Shown here piece after piece: positions 2,723 through 23,382 of a stretch of 23,573 nucleotides of DNA. Numbering within the stretch: the first letter of the stretch is position 1; each line of letters starts with the position of its first letter. The translations under genes and the position numbers were made by a program. The notes under the pieces are model-generated. The model did not search any database. It was not told where the DNA came from and saw nothing but the letters and a program-made list of their open reading frames with translations. Origin of the DNA: a virus; IMG/VR virus record IMGVR_UViG_3300020452_000242, positions 1 to 23,573 of that record; one strand, given 5' to 3'.

Positions 2723-4201
2723 TTATTTATTTATAAATTCACTACTGGCGGCAAATAATGCTTTTGTTCCGCCTAAATTTGTTGTTTGATCTGTGCTCAT
2801 TGTTACAGTTGTATAATATCCTTTTATTCCCATAGTTTGATTACCCCATACAACTTCTCCAGGCATTGGATCTACCGTATTGTTAGGTATAACTGCGTAA
2901 TATTTATTTTGTTTTCTATCAAATCCAGCTCTGTACTCTATGTTATTTTCAGTATAAAGACCTTCATCATAGCTCCATATTTTATCATATGCAATACCTG
3001 AATTCGCCCCATCTAATTCTCTTACATCTCCAGTTGCCTCATCATCGTAGTTGTAATACAGACCAGAAAGTGTAGGAAATTCTGTTTCACCTGTTTGATC
3101 TGAAACTATATTTGTAACTTCCCATCCATTACTACCTTCATAGTTTATAGTTTTAAATGTTTTTATAAAGTTAGGTTGAGGGTTAAAAACAAATTGTATT
3201 ACTGACGCAGATGTTGAACCATAAAATTGATTTCTTAATGCCGTTGAATCATAGTGTTGATATAATTCATTTCCTTTACATGAATAAAATTTACCAATAG
3301 AACTAAAAATTTGATCTGGTGAGTAAGTAAAAAAGCTAGTCCAACCAGCACTTCTTTCGTCCCATGTTAGAGTTTTAAATGATCCTTCTTTAAATCTACC
3401 TGATGGTTGTAAAGATAAAACATAGTTTTTATTATATATATCGTATCCACCAACAATAGCTCCAGAATCATCCATTTGATTAAATTCATTTCTAAAAAAG
3501 TTAGTCATACCAGCTATAGATATTTCTTGTATACTAGTTCCTTGCATTTTTAAAACTGCATTTTGTTCTTTATCTACAAAATATTTTGTATAACCATAAG
3601 TTGCAAAAGACTCTGGGTTGTTTCCAATACCCCAATTTCCTGCTACTGGAGTTATTTGACCTATAACTTGTTTACCTGTTGTGCTTAAACCTAAACCTTC
3701 TGCTGTAAATATAGCGTCTTTATCTATTAAAGCTACATTTACTTTTCTTTGTTGGAAAACTATTAGATTTGTATCCTCCGCATATAATCTCTGTATAGTT
3801 CCACCAACTGGATCAACTCCTCTTGTAATTTCTTCACCAACACTAAATTGATTAGTATTGTTTATACCTGTTCTCGCATTAAATATACCTGAATAAATCA
3901 ATGTATTAGAAAGTAACTGTTGGTTTGGATTATCTTCTACTATATAAGCTTTAACTCCAAAATCAACACTTGTATTATTAAATCCACATCGTATTCTCGC
4001 AGCTTCTATACACCAATCATAAGTTGTATTACCTAATATAGGATTATACCATGTACATGTATCACAAGCAACCTCTCCTTGTTCATATGCGTAGGGTATA
4101 TTACCAGGTGCTACAACTCCAGTATCATCAACGTCACCTGTGCCATAAAGTCTCTTTGCATAAAAGGAGTTAAAATAGTTTACGTTTATACTTATTGCCA
4201 T
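2723..4201 (-). CDS. Tail stabilization / muzzle protein, C-terminal half
   Basis: This 492-residue beta-rich protein has the core motifs I associate with phage tail stabilization proteins (T7 gp12 / crAss-like muzzle role): RIRCGFNNTSVDFGVKAYI (about 70-88), DTNLIVFQQRKVNVALIDKDAI (about 146-167), NPESFATYGYTKYFVDKEQNAVL (about 196-218), ISIAGMTNFFRNEF (about 228-241) and GWTSFFTYSPDQIFSS. In related phages these appear, from memory, in the second half of one long polypeptide whose first half resembles the upstream 1581-residue protein. Here they are encoded separately, with their own ATG 31 nt after the stop of that protein and in a different frame. The N-terminus carries four cysteines at about residues 46, 49, 64 and 72. 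It would sit in the tail barrel below the connectors, with the 1581-residue partner. It is confidently a structural tail protein; the exact ring position is unknown. Confidence 0.85.
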   Translation of the reverse strand: MAISINVNYFNSFYAKRLYGTGDVDDTGVVAPGNIPYAYEQGEVACDTCTWYNPILGNTTYDWCIEAARIRCGFNNTSVDFGVKAYIVEDNPNQQLLSNTLIYSGIFNARTGINNTNQFSVGEEITRGVDPVGGTIQRLYAEDTNLIVFQQRKVNVALIDKDAIFTAEGLGLSTTGKQVIGQITPVAGNWGIGNNPESFATYGYTKYFVDKEQNAVLKMQGTSIQEISIAGMTNFFRNEFNQMDDSGAIVGGYDIYNKNYVLSLQPSGRFKEGSFKTLTWDERSAGWTSFFTYSPDQIFSSIGKFYSCKGNELYQHYDSTALRNQFYGSTSASVIQFVFNPQPNFIKTFKTINYEGSNGWEVTNIVSDQTGETEFPTLSGLYYNYDDEATGDVRELDGANSGIAYDKIWSYDEGLYTENNIEYRAGFDRKQNKYYAVIPNNTVDPMPGEVVWGNQTMGIKGYYTTVTMSTDQTTNLGGTKALFAASSEFINK

Positions 4202-4232
4202 TTATATATATAGTTACTTGTTTTTTAATAAA

Positions 4233-7200
4233 TTAAGGTATACATGGTGCTCCGGATGTTCCAACATAAGTTCCATCACTATAAGTTATATACCAACCCC
4301 AATCAGGACCGTTAGTTCCACTAGTCTTACAAAGAATTCTATATTCACCTATTTGATCAAATTTATATCTATAACCGTATTGATCACCTACCAAATCCCC
4401 AGGGTTGGCGGGTACAGAAACCACACTTTGTGTAGCTAACCATAAAGTATCTAAAGCTGGATCTGGTGCTTTAGTAACTGCAACACTATCAATATTAGTC
4501 CATGCTGAACTAGAATTAGCTCTATACTGTATATTAAATTCTCCTATTAACGATCCTACAACACCTATAGCGCTAGTTACTTTTTGGAAATAAACTGTAA
4601 ACTGAACTGTACCTTGGAATAAATCTCCTCTTTGTTTTTCACCCGGAGGACATCCTGGTGGAGAAGCAAGTGGATCAAATTCATCTGCTAAATTCCAACA
4701 ATAATAATTTAAACTACCACAACCGCTTGGTGTAGAAGCATTGTATCCATCGCATAAATAAGGTGTAAAACTTCCAAATTGATTTGTAAATGCAAACTCA
4801 CCACATCTTGATCCAGAAAAAGCTGGATAAGGACTAGTGCTTAAATATCTATTAGGAAAAGTAGAAGGTGTAAATACAGCATCTGGTCCAGTAGCTATAG
4901 GTTTTGGAGCTGGTTGAGTTCCAAATGTGACAAGTATATCTACTTCAGTAAATAAAGAACCAGTACCTTGGTCTGCGTCTTCTACTTTTATTTTTATACC
5001 ATATGGAGTTTCTGCTACAACTTCAACTGTATTTCTTAATATTACAGATCCTTCTACTGGTCCAGTAATTAATTCAAAGTCTGAAACAGAACCACCTAAC
5101 ACACTTTCAATACTCCATATTAATTGTTTTTTGTTATTACTAGAATCATCAGAACCATTAAGACCATATAAAGTAATTATATCACTAGGTGTTACAGGTG
5201 GAGTATCTGGATAATCTGGTAAACTAGGTATAGTTACGCTTGAACCAGAAACATCACTAGTATATCCCGCATCATCATATATAGATGGTGTTATATTATC
5301 TAAGGTAAGAGTTAAAGCATCTGTAAGAGTATCAGTAAATGTTTCAGCACCACTTGTAGATTCTACTTCAAGTGATAAAACATATACATCATCTCCTGGA
5401 TTTAAGGATCTTTCTCTAAACCAATATTCTTTAGCAAGTTCTATTTGAGCTTGATTAACACCTGGTAAGTTAACTGTAAAATAATCACTAATATTTGCTA
5501 TTGGTGATGACGGATCAGCTAATGTATACATGCTTGAAATGCTTACAGCAGTTATTGTAGCTGTTGCACCGCTTCCGTTTATAAAGTTAAAAGGTGAACC
5601 AACTCCACTTCCAGAAGCTAAGTCTTCTTCAAATGATTGATTACTAACACTAGCTGCAATAACACCGTTATAATTAGAAGCAATAGAGCTATTAAGAGTT
5701 TCTAGGTCTCCACTTAATGTTGATTCCCAATATATATCTAATAAAGAAAAAACAGGTTTTGTTTCTACTATAGATAATATAGGTTGCATTGTTCTAATAC
5801 CATCAGCATAATTAGTATCATGTGGTATAGCAGCTGGAGAAGCTAATAAAGGTTCTCCACACACAATAGCTCCAATAGGATTTTCAAAGTTATTAACTTG
5901 ACCTATTTTCATTATAAAAGGATTTTGATCAGAACCATAAAACGATTGTTTATCTGCAACATCTCCATATGGTATAGATCCTGTAGGAACTCTTTTTATA
6001 TTACCTAATATATTACCAGAAGTATCCGTTAAACACCCACCAGCCTCTTCTGTTGTACTACCATATTCACCTCTATATCCTTTTGCAGCTCCACCTGATA
6101 ATTCAATACATGGTACATGGCTTCCAGTTGTATAATTAAATGAAGCGAAATTTGCATCCATTTGAAATGCTTCAAAAGGAATAGCTGCTAATTCTGTTTC
6201 TCTAGCAGTACCAATGTTTAATACTGTTTGCTGTATTTGTCCTGGGTAGTATTGTAAATTTCTTACACCTGTATTTGTTTGTTCTGTAGCGTTTGGATTA
6301 TTAACTCTAGTAAACAATATTTCTTCACTATTAAATTCTCTATCTGTAGGACCAACTTCATTTAAACTTCTAGGTATTTTATTTACATTTTCACTAAGCA
6401 GTGTAGCAAATGCTATTTTTCCTCTCTGAGTTTCTATAGATTCAACACTTGGATTAGTTGAAGCTCCTGAGGTTTGTCTAGAAACACCATCCCAAACTTG
6501 ATTTTGTATAGGTAAACCATTAACAAATCCTGGTAAAAATACATTATAATATTCTTGTTCTTGTTGTTTAACTACAACCTTATATGTATACCAACCTAAA
6601 GGATTAGCTTCACCTATTTCTGTTATTTCTAACACAGCATCAGAAGTAGTACCAGTTAAATTAACTGTATCTCCTACTTGATAACCATGACCAGCTGTAG
6701 CTACTATATAATCTTGTATTTCAGTAGGGACGCCTGTTACCTCAGTAACCCTTATAGTTAATCCTTCACCAGAACCACCAATAGCTTTATAAGTTTTATT
6801 AGCGGTAAGTCCCTCGCCGGGATCATTTAAGCTGGTTGCTTTTACCCAACCCTCTCTTCTATATAAACCAGGTTTACCTTGAGAAGGATTATACTCTGTA
6901 CCTATTTGTTCGCTAATACTTAAAGTTAAATTTCTTCCTACCCAGTCTATAACAGGAGCATCTATCGCGTCTCCTTCAGTTCGATAAGGAACATAAACTG
7001 TTGACCCTTCAAATTCATTAGCTGAATCTAAAGATGATAATATTACATCAGATTGTCTACCATAATAATCTGCTAATACAAAACCTACTTGATAAGTTCT
7101 ATTTTGTTTAACATTAGAAAAAGGATATTCTGTAGAATAATCCGATGTTTGATAATTTCTTTCTGTCCAATTAGCTGTGTATTCAATTGACTCAGGTGGA

Positions 7201-8978
7201 GTCATACCTTGAACATAGTTTCCATAAACCACTCTATTTGATATAAGTTCTTGACTTAAAGCTTTAATAGGTACTTTATCATATACTCTTACTGTTTGAT
7301 CTTCTGGTAAAGTTTTATAAGGTTTGTTAGAAGTATATTGATAATTATAAAATATTTTATCTATTAATCCATTTATATCATCATCATAATTTACTATATC
7401 TAATTGAGAATCTTGTATATCAGATACATTAATAGTGTCTAAAACTTTTATAGATTCAGCATCAGATTCTTTATATAATATATCTATTTCCTTTACTTTA
7501 AATTGAGATAGTAAATTGTTTGTTGCGCTAGATTTAACTACAACACCATCAGTCTTAGGCAATGGAATATTTAAAGCTATACTATCAATATCGTTTTCAA
7601 ACCATTCTAATATAGTACTTGTATACGCATCATTTTCATCTTGATAATAATTGTTTCTAACACTTCCTGATTCAACAGGAGTGTTCATTTGACCTAATCC
7701 AAACTGCCCTTGTTGTTTAGGTATAAACATTATTTGACTAAAAGGTGCTATTAAAGAATATTCATTATTAATAAATCTAAACCTATAACTAAACCTTACA
7801 AATCTATCATCTAAATAATTAGTATCACCATCAAAACTAGAATCATAATTAGGATTTACACCAAAAGCTATTTGGTCTCCATTAGTAAAACCATGAGCTT
7901 GATCAAATTCAATATAAAATTGATTATCTGGTGGTGGTGCGCCTTGACCTACCACTCTAACAGCTGATTTTTTTATCCTTAAACTTGCTGGAGACGCGGC
8001 AGGATTTGTTAAATTTTCAACTAAATCTCCATTTCTAGGAAAACCACCAAAATTCCAATCATCAAATCTAGCTTGAGTAGTTACATCTGCTGGAAGAAAA
8101 GGCACGTTAGTGTTTCCACCCCATGTTTGTACAGAGTAATTAGAAACATATCTGTCTGATCTATTTTCCATAGATGTTCTACTAAAATCTATCAAAATAC
8201 CAGCTGCTAACGCTCCGGGTAATATAGCTGGACTTACTTCAAACTCTGTATTACTTATAACTTTAGTAACTCGAACAGGTGGTAGTACGTTTTGAATAGG
8301 AAAATTAAGAACTTCTGTTTTATCATTAGGTGTTACTATATCACCTACTTTAATATTGTCATTACCAACTGTTATTTCAATTAATGTATCACTACCTGTA
8401 GAAACTGTAGTTACGGTTTGTCTTTCTAAAGGTATTATAGGATCAAAAGGATAATACTGTGCTACTGATATTTGATTTTCTTCTTGATAAAAAGTATTAT
8501 CATTAGCAGCTAAACTAACATCTATTCTTCTAGGTTGATTAAAGTTATCAGTAAAAAATAATAATGTATCTACTAAATTAGTTTGATGTATAGGAAATTC
8601 TTTGTTAAAATTTAAAAAATGACCACTTACTAATGTTTGTGGACCTGTCGCGGTTGTTAAATTAAAGGAAGCAATTAGACATGTGTTAGCATTAGTTGCT
8701 CTAGATGAAGTATCTGTATCGCTAAAATTAGTAGCAAAAACATATAGAGTATTTGTTATCTCATCTACAAACTTACCTATAATACTCATATTAGAACCTG
8801 TTACTCCAGTTCCAACAATTATATTTCCTTCTACATTTTCAAATTCACCAACAGTTGAACCTGCTGATCTACTTATTAATAGATTAATAGCTTCTCTGTA
8901 TTCACCTTCTGGTAAAATACGGGCATCAATGTCTTGGTTCATTCTACCTTTTAAAAAGGTATTTTTAACTTCTGCCAT
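4233..8978 (-). CDS. Tail stabilization / muzzle protein, N-terminal half with C-terminal adhesin-like domains
   Basis: At 1581 residues this is the largest gene. The start KNTFLKGRMNQDIDARILPE and the following EYREAINLLISRSAGSTVGEFENVEGN (to about residue 53) match the N-terminal signature of phage stabilization/muzzle proteins. Family-like segments continue through RFVRFSYRFRFINNEYSLIA (about 390), the RLVYGNYVQGM-like stretch (here NRVVYGNYVQGM), FVLADYYGRQSDVIL and NPLGWYTYKVVVKQQEQEYYNVFLPG (about 790-815). It then passes through VETKPVFSLLDIYWES (about 1075). A Gly-rich module with GSGEGL and GHGYQVGDTV is inserted at about 712-790. The last ~320 residues differ: an Ig/cadherin-like unit (about 1262-1353, with DFELITG and KIKVEDAD), then a Cys-rich terminal region with seven cysteines (about 1380-1581). 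It starts 3 nt after the connector gene. The N-terminal part probably builds the tail barrel; the C-terminal part is a candidate surface or receptor-contacting domain, by inference. Confidence 0.85.
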   Translation of the reverse strand: MAEVKNTFLKGRMNQDIDARILPEGEYREAINLLISRSAGSTVGEFENVEGNIIVGTGVTGSNMSIIGKFVDEITNTLYVFATNFSDTDTSSRATNANTCLIASFNLTTATGPQTLVSGHFLNFNKEFPIHQTNLVDTLLFFTDNFNQPRRIDVSLAANDNTFYQEENQISVAQYYPFDPIIPLERQTVTTVSTGSDTLIEITVGNDNIKVGDIVTPNDKTEVLNFPIQNVLPPVRVTKVISNTEFEVSPAILPGALAAGILIDFSRTSMENRSDRYVSNYSVQTWGGNTNVPFLPADVTTQARFDDWNFGGFPRNGDLVENLTNPAASPASLRIKKSAVRVVGQGAPPPDNQFYIEFDQAHGFTNGDQIAFGVNPNYDSSFDGDTNYLDDRFVRFSYRFRFINNEYSLIAPFSQIMFIPKQQGQFGLGQMNTPVESGSVRNNYYQDENDAYTSTILEWFENDIDSIALNIPLPKTDGVVVKSSATNNLLSQFKVKEIDILYKESDAESIKVLDTINVSDIQDSQLDIVNYDDDINGLIDKIFYNYQYTSNKPYKTLPEDQTVRVYDKVPIKALSQELISNRVVYGNYVQGMTPPESIEYTANWTERNYQTSDYSTEYPFSNVKQNRTYQVGFVLADYYGRQSDVILSSLDSANEFEGSTVYVPYRTEGDAIDAPVIDWVGRNLTLSISEQIGTEYNPSQGKPGLYRREGWVKATSLNDPGEGLTANKTYKAIGGSGEGLTIRVTEVTGVPTEIQDYIVATAGHGYQVGDTVNLTGTTSDAVLEITEIGEANPLGWYTYKVVVKQQEQEYYNVFLPGFVNGLPIQNQVWDGVSRQTSGASTNPSVESIETQRGKIAFATLLSENVNKIPRSLNEVGPTDREFNSEEILFTRVNNPNATEQTNTGVRNLQYYPGQIQQTVLNIGTARETELAAIPFEAFQMDANFASFNYTTGSHVPCIELSGGAAKGYRGEYGSTTEEAGGCLTDTSGNILGNIKRVPTGSIPYGDVADKQSFYGSDQNPFIMKIGQVNNFENPIGAIVCGEPLLASPAAIPHDTNYADGIRTMQPILSIVETKPVFSLLDIYWESTLSGDLETLNSSIASNYNGVIAASVSNQSFEEDLASGSGVGSPFNFINGSGATATITAVSISSMYTLADPSSPIANISDYFTVNLPGVNQAQIELAKEYWFRERSLNPGDDVYVLSLEVESTSGAETFTDTLTDALTLTLDNITPSIYDDAGYTSDVSGSSVTIPSLPDYPDTPPVTPSDIITLYGLNGSDDSSNNKKQLIWSIESVLGGSVSDFELITGPVEGSVILRNTVEVVAETPYGIKIKVEDADQGTGSLFTEVDILVTFGTQPAPKPIATGPDAVFTPSTFPNRYLSTSPYPAFSGSRCGEFAFTNQFGSFTPYLCDGYNASTPSGCGSLNYYCWNLADEFDPLASPPGCPPGEKQRGDLFQGTVQFTVYFQKVTSAIGVVGSLIGEFNIQYRANSSSAWTNIDSVAVTKAPDPALDTLWLATQSVVSVPANPGDLVGDQYGYRYKFDQIGEYRILCKTSGTNGPDWGWYITYSDGTYVGTSGAPCIP

Positions 8979-19156: not shown

Positions 19157-19434
19157 TACTTAGATCTTCCTTCTGCAAAACCTTTAAATTCTTTAGGTTT
19201 TTTTGTTTCTTCTTCTACCTTTCCTTCTATAATGTTTTCTTCTTCGTTTATTTTTGAAAGGATTTCAAACGCGTCAAATATAGCTAATTTTTTAGTGGCA
19301 GCTGCATTTTTTAATCTATCAGCTGAAATGTCTGGTCCAAAATCTATTATTGGTTCTTTAGCTACTTTTATTAATTCATCAACAGCTACGTGTCCAGCTT
19401 GGATTATATTCCTTTTGATTTTTTTTACTTCCAT
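19156..19434 (-). CDS. Candidate terminase small subunit
   Basis: This 92-residue helical protein has a basic N-terminus (MEVKKIKRNIIQAGHVAVDE, then LIKVAKEPI), a central ISADRLKNAAATKKLAIFDAFEIL (about 41-64), and an acidic then basic low-complexity tail (NEEENIIEGKVEEETKKPKE). Small size, helical DNA-binding-like N-terminal region and location directly upstream of TerL with a TAATG stop-start overlap make it the best terminase small subunit candidate. This is inferred by position, as TerS proteins are too variable for recognition by eye. Its first 56 nt overlap the end of the GroES-like gene in another frame. No internal Met would allow a later start, so the long overlap seems real. It is alternatively a hypothetical packaging accessory protein. 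Confidence 0.6.
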   Translation of the reverse strand: MEVKKIKRNIIQAGHVAVDELIKVAKEPIIDFGPDISADRLKNAAATKKLAIFDAFEILSKINEEENIIEGKVEEETKKPKEFKGFAEGRSK

Positions 19435-19984
19435 ATTTAATTACAATATCATTAGATTTCATGCAGTAAAGCAGTTCATTATCTACAACAAACTCCCATT
19501 CAGCTCCTGGTTTAAAACCTACTACATCATTTAAAGCAATATTATGTGCTTCTAATGAGTTATTAGTATATTTTAGTATACCAATATAAGGAACTGTTTT
19601 TTTATGCTTTAAAACATCATTATTTTCTATAGGTTTTATAAAACATCTATCACCAAAAGTATGCCATTTGTTATTTTTTTTATATAAATATATTTGATCT
19701 AAAGATACAAAATATAAATTATCTTTAAAATAACTTCTACTGTTTTTCTTCTCACCCTGCATATCATAAAAGTTTCTAAAAATGTTTTGATGAACTATAA
19801 TTGTATCACCTATTTTTATACTTGTTTTAAAAGCTGCAGGTAAAGAAACAACTTTAGCTTTTCTATTCACAAATTTCCAAGATTCAATTTTATTATTTAA
19901 AATCAAATCTTTATCACCTACTTTAGTTTTATTATTATATGTTCCACCTATTGGTTGTACAATAAAATCATATAAACTTTTCAT
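19379..19984 (-). CDS. Tandem GroES-like (co-chaperonin-like) protein
   Basis: This 201-residue protein appears to contain two cpn10/GroES-like beta-barrels. Domain 2 (about 109-185) is clearest: FGDRCFIKPI resembles the GroES start LGDRVLVKP. A loop segment (about 119-134) and IGILKYTNN follow, then LNDVVGFKPGAEWEFVVDNE and LLYCMKSNDIVI, paralleling the GroES core GDxVxF...E...DGExYLI...SDI. Domain 1 (about 4-101) has YDFIVQPIGG, a loop with the hydrophobic triplet LIL (27-29) in the place of the GroES mobile-loop IVL, then KIGDTIIVHQNIFR and, after an insertion, LYFVSLDQIYLY. It could be a phage co-chaperonin for host GroEL folding capsid proteins, analogous to T4 gp31, but fused like plastid Cpn20. 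It is cotranscribed with terminase and capsid genes and overlaps its upstream neighbour by one base (TAATG). Structural similarity is inferred by eye. Confidence 0.6.
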   Translation of the reverse strand: MKSLYDFIVQPIGGTYNNKTKVGDKDLILNNKIESWKFVNRKAKVVSLPAAFKTSIKIGDTIIVHQNIFRNFYDMQGEKKNSRSYFKDNLYFVSLDQIYLYKKNNKWHTFGDRCFIKPIENNDVLKHKKTVPYIGILKYTNNSLEAHNIALNDVVGFKPGAEWEFVVDNELLYCMKSNDIVIKYGSKKNQKEYNPSWTRSC

Positions 19985-22911: not shown

Positions 22912-23382
22912 TTATTTATTATTACTTATACTTTTAAATTTTTCCGCACCTCGTGAGCCAAAATAGGCTACATAAACAGTGACTAATAAAGTTTTCAATA
23001 ATTCTACCCAGCCAGTATCTACTGTGAAGGTCCATTGAAAACTATCTAATATTATTAAAATTACCATAGAAATTGTAAGAAATATTAAAGATATTGGGCG
23101 TGTATTTTTACTTAACCATGAATCTGATTTCATGTCGCTTTCCCATCTTTTTGATACTTCTTGCATTTCTATTATGTCCATTTCTAAAAGCTTCATAGCT
23201 TTTTCTTTATCTTCTGGTTGTAATACAGTATCAGGTTCTTTTTGTATTAAGTTTTTAACCATACCTAAAACACCTTGATCTGGTAATACATCACCAACAG
23301 TACCTAAAATTCCAGGTGCTGCTTTTGATAAAAAAGCTCCTACTTTAGTTTCAGAAAATTTTTTTTTATTTTTTGTTGCCAT
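22912..23382 (-). CDS. Holin-like protein (GTA-type holin family)
   Basis: This 156-residue protein has a soluble N-terminal part (1-78), then RWESDMKSDSWLSKNTRP (79-96). That motif is the hallmark I know from the phage/gene-transfer-agent 3-TM holin family (GTA_holin_3TM). Two hydrophobic segments follow at about 97-114 and 126-143, and a charged C-terminus. The family is thought to form the inner-membrane lesion that releases endolysin. No endolysin gene is in the window. The N-terminus (MATKNKKKF) spans a nine-A homopolymer on the coding strand. The start overlaps the preceding 58-residue gene by 17 nt, pointing to coupled translation. The start is preferred because the lysine-rich N-terminus has no better Met. 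Confidence 0.8.
   Translation of the reverse strand: MATKNKKKFSETKVGAFLSKAAPGILGTVGDVLPDQGVLGMVKNLIQKEPDTVLQPEDKEKAMKLLEMDIIEMQEVSKRWESDMKSDSWLSKNTRPISLIFLTISMVILIILDSFQWTFTVDTGWVELLKTLLVTVYVAYFGSRGAEKFKSISNNK

Follow-up and report, generated by a model that had tools for sequence, protein, structure and literature searches.

A crAss-like muzzle protein encoded by two genes, with an added region at the point of fission

Two genes for one muzzle protein

In phage crAss001 the muzzle, gp44, forms a hexameric gate built from a ring-joining domain, a propeller of seven blades, a pair of Ig-like domains and the crass domain; the muzzle of crAss-like phages is believed to control the exit of DNA and proteins (PMC10172136). 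According to the same paper, the ring-joining and propeller domains of T7-type nozzle proteins are similar to those of gp44, but these proteins have no crass domain. Here we describe a muzzle encoded by two adjacent genes in a 23,573-base virus record of IMG/VR (IMGVR_UViG_3300020452_000242), a fragment which in its whole length is called the window below. Its minus strand carries genes for TerL, portal, capsid and two further structural proteins of the virion, which occupy the position of ring proteins, followed by the muzzle pair; PHROG matches were obtained for portal, TerL and the major capsid protein (MCP). Muzzle chain 1 (P0001, 1581 aa, 4233..8978, minus strand) comprises the N-terminal part of a crAss-like muzzle and a C-terminal extension, and muzzle chain 2 (P0002, 492 aa, 2723..4201, minus strand) the C-terminal part of the muzzle. 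The intergenic gap between the chain 1 stop and the chain 2 start is 31 nt long (4202..4232, minus strand) and the two genes are in different frames. Both open reading frames, their spacing, their differing frames and the motifs quoted from their translations had been named in an original prediction made from the letters of the window, and all of them were found. We consider it probable that the hexameric tail-tip gate of this phage is a composite of the two chains, and that splitting the gene created a free end on which adhesins can be exchanged.

The prediction that the two genes are parts of one long protein is borne out by their matches at opposite ends of phrog_14478 (1474 positions) and by alignment to the intact homologues of phi38:1, elemo and crAss001. 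P0001 matched this family with residues 4-178 on positions 1-174 (whole-protein E 3.4e-43) and P0002 on positions 923-1231. The conserved N-terminal segment of chain 1 (residues 1-178, 8445..8978, minus strand) aligned with crAss001 gp44 at 8-152 (probability 89.5), and a second conserved segment (residues 393-660, 6999..7802, minus strand) with gp97 of phi38:1. In chain 2 the conserved core corresponds to our profile C (residues 99-372, 3086..3907, minus strand), which from residue 115 onward aligned to gp44 1034-1293, and Pfam crAss_MUZ_C was found at residues 323-440 (2882..3235, minus strand) with 45.2 bits at a cut-off of 27. PF25731 was absent from the Pfam matches of P0001 up to an E value of 1, and searches of PDB sequences with P0001, P0002, A1 and A2 gave nothing useful. 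The crassvirus muzzle family (PF25729/PF25731, phrog_14478) is defined by a single polypeptide and here there are two genes, so the window muzzle is a split variant of that family.

In phi38:1 (gp97, 1324 aa) and in Flavobacterium phage elemo (elemoC, 1493 aa) the gene order is similar, but the muzzle is unsplit: the first part of a single protein aligns with P0001, and a stretch toward its end with P0002. In crAss001 the gp44 gene likewise follows a ring-type (tail tubular) gene, and the N- and C-terminal parts of its product align with ours, but it encodes one chain of 1371 aa, whereas the window has two chains and, where the cut lies, about 480 extra residues. One muzzle gene each was present in the three gut crassviruses examined (1503, 1553 and 2031 aa). 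The nozzle proteins of T7-type phages are single chains. We use the wording "crAss-like" because phi38:1 is listed under Pervagoviridae, without Crassvirales.

The split as a feature of a clade

The 328 loci obtained from six IMG/VR scans, in which some contigs recur, were pooled with the window, with L005, which is a piece of the window, and with five phage-record loci, and the resulting 335 sequences were sorted by three profiles. The two-gene layout of the window, which we call class I, was present in 104 of them (window included), 22 were "single" (seven span the whole C profile, the others are cut short) and 44 were "single plus a further C-terminal piece"; the remaining rows were N-terminal only (59), without a muzzle in view (100) or broken or partial (6). 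Counts leave out the N-terminal-only rows (55 open at the contig end, four closed with at most 296 nt remaining), the 100 loci without a muzzle in view, three rows whose C part is broken (L031, L042, L147), two with the C part only and one with a broken N part, while six "open end" rows were excluded from the state counts. The 104 class I rows represent 84 distinct junctions; the gap measures 3-55 nt at 83 of these and 382 nt at the remaining one (L061, the sole class I case seen with a long gap). Both ends were visible at 84 loci from the two scans with one chain as query, and all 84 were split (two with further breaks). The same was true of all 22 such loci among 80 chosen by their capsid (one with a broken chain 2), rows L031, L042 and L147 being those with further breaks inside these scan counts, and of all six among ten loci on contigs of metagenome-assembled genomes, six of which are labeled as Bacteroidetes or Flavobacteria-type and four otherwise.

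From this we conclude that the fission is real and clade-wide, a feature of the clade and no oddity of the window phage. A sequencing or assembly indel breaking a single gene does have a precedent in a relative, Maribacter phage Panino, whose frame is broken inside a conserved motif. For class I this explanation is already refuted by the relatives and deserves practically no credence: at each of the 84 junctions chain 1 ends at a stop codon and, after a gap, chain 2 begins at a conserved start of its own, and the near relatives L006 and L007, which come from other metagenomes, have the same two-gene layout. The original prediction of a true fission is thus upheld by many independent contigs. 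It had also held that the layout would be ordinary if all homologues were two separate genes; this applies within the clade, in which the split is fixed, but not beyond it, where single-gene homologues exist.

Programmed frameshifting or stop read-through, yielding one long protein, could be suspected from an A6-C stretch near the window junction, but this run is located past the chain 1 stop. Relative to the frame of chain 1, that of chain 2 is 0, 1 and 2 at 33, 32 and 19 of the 84 junctions, respectively, which leaves no frameshift rule by which the chains could be fused, and extensions of up to 1178 aa would end up in the middle of the protein. We regard such a mechanism as exceedingly improbable.

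Class I falls on one side of a single branch in the MCP tree (29 rows, support 100/99), on one side of a branch in a quick MCP tree (66 rows) and on one branch of the muzzle tree (67 rows, 100/100). In both main trees the intact phi38:1 and elemo, as well as the second group of split muzzles described below (class II), are outside class I and no intact row is within it. An alternative is that two genes are the ancestral state and that the single gene elsewhere is a fusion, for which the rooting leaves some room: phi38:1 was chosen as the root of the MCP tree, and midpoint rooting was applied to the muzzle tree. Single genes are present, however, in phi38:1, elemo and the distant crAss001-type phages, and the two cut places of classes I and II would demand fusions at different joints, which makes ancestral separation very unlikely. 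The MCP of crAss001 was tried as an outgroup and given up in favor of phi38:1, its branch being far too long.

The body of chain 1 ends in an ETxPVxSLLDIFWETS-type motif in all 104 two-gene rows; in the window this final conserved body segment ahead of the fission point reads ETKPVFSLLDIYWES (residues 1072-1086, 5721..5765, minus strand). Chain 2 begins with a conserved stretch (residues 1-20, 4142..4201, minus strand) with a consensus of approximately MA.TLEV.YFNSFYLKR. Judged by eye, phi38:1 and Panino have a like segment (FETIP...), then a linker of about 25 residues where the window has the extension, the stop and the new start, and then the counterpart of the chain 2 start. By alignment, the cut is placed in the stretch matching the G-H insertion of IG2 in crAss001 gp44, about 940-1012 in the numbering of PMC10172136. 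The MAFFT alignment of this region seems, by eye, to misplace the YFNSF start, and the cut is therefore given only as within the G-H insertion.

An A-rich leader had been predicted for each gene. This is true of chain 2, but the chain 1 gene begins only 3 nt past the end of its upstream neighbor. Ahead of the chain 2 start lies the element AAACAAGTAAC (4213..4223, minus strand), conserved in the same place in the clade: AAA[CT]AAGT[AG]A[TC] (AAACAAGTAA-type) was found 17-25 nt upstream of chain 2 in 68 of 84 junctions. There were 28 other matches in 1,636,703 bases, counting both strands of class I loci, and no second AAACAAGTAA-type copy in the window. One guess is that it serves as a binding or initiation site by which chain 2 is coordinated with chain 1. 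Elsewhere on the minus strand the window encodes a GroES-like co-chaperonin two genes upstream of TerL (19379-19984; phrog_13932, E 6.1e-25) and a holin-like protein (22912-23382; phrog_3427, E 6.5e-20).

Two chains as a probable unit and the extension at the cut

Modeled alone with AlphaFold, chain 2 has a predicted local distance difference test score (pLDDT) below 50 at residues 1-185 and mostly 55-84 at residues 186-492. Its best Foldseek match is the crAss001 muzzle (E 2.9e-11), and residues 187-491 match gp44 1117-1371 with a Z score of 15.1 and a root-mean-square deviation (rmsd) of 2.9 A over 237 residues. The first 185 residues hold 42 of the 81 invariant columns of chain 2; being rich in invariant positions and yet disordered in the model of chain 2 alone, they would fit a segment that folds on chain 1.

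Pairwise distances of the two chains over 64 class I loci correlate at 0.83-0.84, compared with 0.81 for two parts of chain 1. Control values were 0.57-0.58 for chain 1 and the adjacent R2, 0.61-0.67 for R1 and chain 1, and 0.39-0.41 for MCP and either chain (0.39 for chain 1). By the measure of their divergence, the chains behave as one unit. Chain 2 might have left the muzzle for some other role, as its existence as a free protein with its own leader may suggest. Against this, it contains the propeller part that chain 1 lacks, the window (the record being a fragment) showed no second copy, and chain 2 co-varies with chain 1. Another role for chain 2 therefore seems quite unlikely, and composite assembly of the two chains is likely.

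Pairs of closely related phages offer a further view of the locus. Between L019 and L020 the capsid is 98.8% identical and four other upstream genes 92-97%, while chain 1 is 61% and chain 2 69% identical; L019 is without an extension and that of L020 has 491 aa. The window and L008 share 97.8% identity in the capsid, and 67% and 75% in the muzzle chains. A near-identical capsid together with a diverged muzzle pair indicates that the pair was exchanged, or evolves fast, as a unit, with the boundary of recombination or fast evolution at the muzzle start in both comparisons.

The region added at the fission point of the window covers chain 1 residues 1100-1581 (4236..5681, minus strand), in agreement with the prediction that the fission point coincides with an adhesin-like region. 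Two tandem cadherin-like beta-sandwich repeats are predicted at residues 1101-1354 (4917..5678, minus strand), and from about residue 1386 there is another beta domain, which was barely probed by the searches. The model of residues 1060-1581 has a mean pLDDT of 82.9 and its top 50 Foldseek matches are all cadherins (best E 2.0e-9), the best superposition having a Z score of 10.4 with an rmsd of 8.3 A over 204 residues, which is loose for the repeat pair as a whole. Pfam Cadherin was detected in 10 of 53 rows of the extension family (best E 1.1e-5) and PHROG matches in none of the 53. A search of PDB sequences with A6 gave weak cadherins and a weak match to cytochrome-oxidase CuA at profile positions 423-458. 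Nearly all class I members have an extension at the cut: chain 1 continues beyond the motif for between one residue (L019, L108) and 1178 (L028, L029). An iterated profile of the window extension matches 85 of 102 extensions of at least 300 aa, the other 17 showing no likeness to it; ten of these 17 were compared with Pfam, with sub-threshold matches to Cadherin (L182) and PAP_central (L161). At 58 loci with alike extensions the mean distance is 0.714 in the extension, 0.429 in the body and 0.383 in chain 2.

It is plausible, going by the modeled fold, that the extension is an adhesin-like arm contacting the host. Beta-sandwich repeats are common as decoration and the host-binding role is putative, so the extension could instead be a structural decoration or an assembly aid with no part in host binding. 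This is a possibility to be taken seriously, yet we think it unlikely: the extension sits at the tail tip and is the fastest-varying part, and relatives carry unrelated sequence in its place, some of it with domains of surface- or sugar-binding type.

Under the preferred reading, a gate of two chains with a free end for adhesins, chain 1 would contain the ring-joining part, the first propeller strands, IG1, most of IG2 and the crass domain, and chain 2 the last IG2 segment and the remaining propeller. The chains would fold jointly into a composite subunit, six of each per virion, with chain 2 translated from its own start so that no fused product arises. The extension would be an exposed and exchangeable cadherin-like arm touching the cell surface, and IG2 and the crass domain, which adjoin it, would relay the contact to the gate. 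Through the cut a loop would have become a free end on which arms are easily swapped.

Several points weigh against this reading. Chain 2 and its adjacent downstream neighbor correlate at 0.75, and MCP and R2, which are different proteins, at 0.85, which means that linkage or shared history can also yield such values. Composite assembly is putative, and the low pLDDT at the chain 2 start may reflect just a thin alignment (36 rows). L019 and L108 are practically without an extension, which is therefore dispensable at least there. Adhesion, finally, is suggested by the modeled fold, and the window's own extension matched no Pfam Cadherin family (0 families), for which reason we call it cadherin-like only.

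A second fission in class II

The ctfjg026-like group (class II; L004 and loci among L195-L332) also has a muzzle in two genes and a chain 1 extension at the cut, but there the cut lies inside the propeller, between two of its strands near the equivalent of P0002 residue 272, and often one further gene separates the halves. A separate frame for the C-terminal piece is present in 43 rows, of which 37 are distinct, and where this frame is closed (37 rows) it encodes 245-292 aa and once 626. The 44th row of this sort is Panino, with its frame break (L003, 8985-9140); its muzzle is annotated as two genes and intact homologues exist. When the whole records of nine rows without a C-terminal piece in the locus were searched, with L290 and two positives run along as controls that matched, eight had the piece kilobases downstream; none was found for L304, whose record ends soon after. 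All 28 rows whose halves are more than 150 nt apart carry members of one BLAST-linked protein family in between, some contigs being counted twice, and four proteins of this intervening gene had no Pfam match above the cut-off.

Class II extensions have 254-484 aa in 40 of 43 rows and 662-1273 in three, and just about 110 aa in L304, L306 and L333. Ten of them were compared with Pfam: Ig-like (L289), thrombospondin-3 (L290) and BACON (L316) domains scored above the cut-off, BACON (L302) and GLEYA (L328) below it, and five had no match. No homology between class I and class II extensions was detected by profile, hhalign or BLASTP.

The fewest state changes are two on the MCP tree, corresponding to two fissions, and four on the muzzle tree because Panino nests in class II there (100/99 with L298). 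In the MCP tree Panino stands beside elemo (96/93); class II with elemo and Panino is supported at 91/83 and class II alone weakly at 93/51, elemo having a long branch. Given the conflicting placement of Panino, two or more fissions, or else a reversal, may have occurred inside class II.

A broader proposal, for which we see the case as evenly balanced, is that the gate gene was split on two or more occasions in different loops, and that every split left chain 1 with a free terminus on the tail surface, which bears swappable unrelated domains (cadherin-like, BACON, Ig-like, thrombospondin-3). This would be a repeated route to an interchangeable receptor-binding arm with the gate untouched. No description of a split muzzle was seen among the open-licence papers searched. 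Annotation can miss half of the muzzle in such phages, as the C-terminal pieces of class II match PHROGs of "unknown function" (phrog_18548, phrog_38031). A two-chain gate cut within an intertwined fold would offer a natural split for tests of assembly and gating, as well as a ready place to seek host-range determinants in phages that are mostly uncultured.

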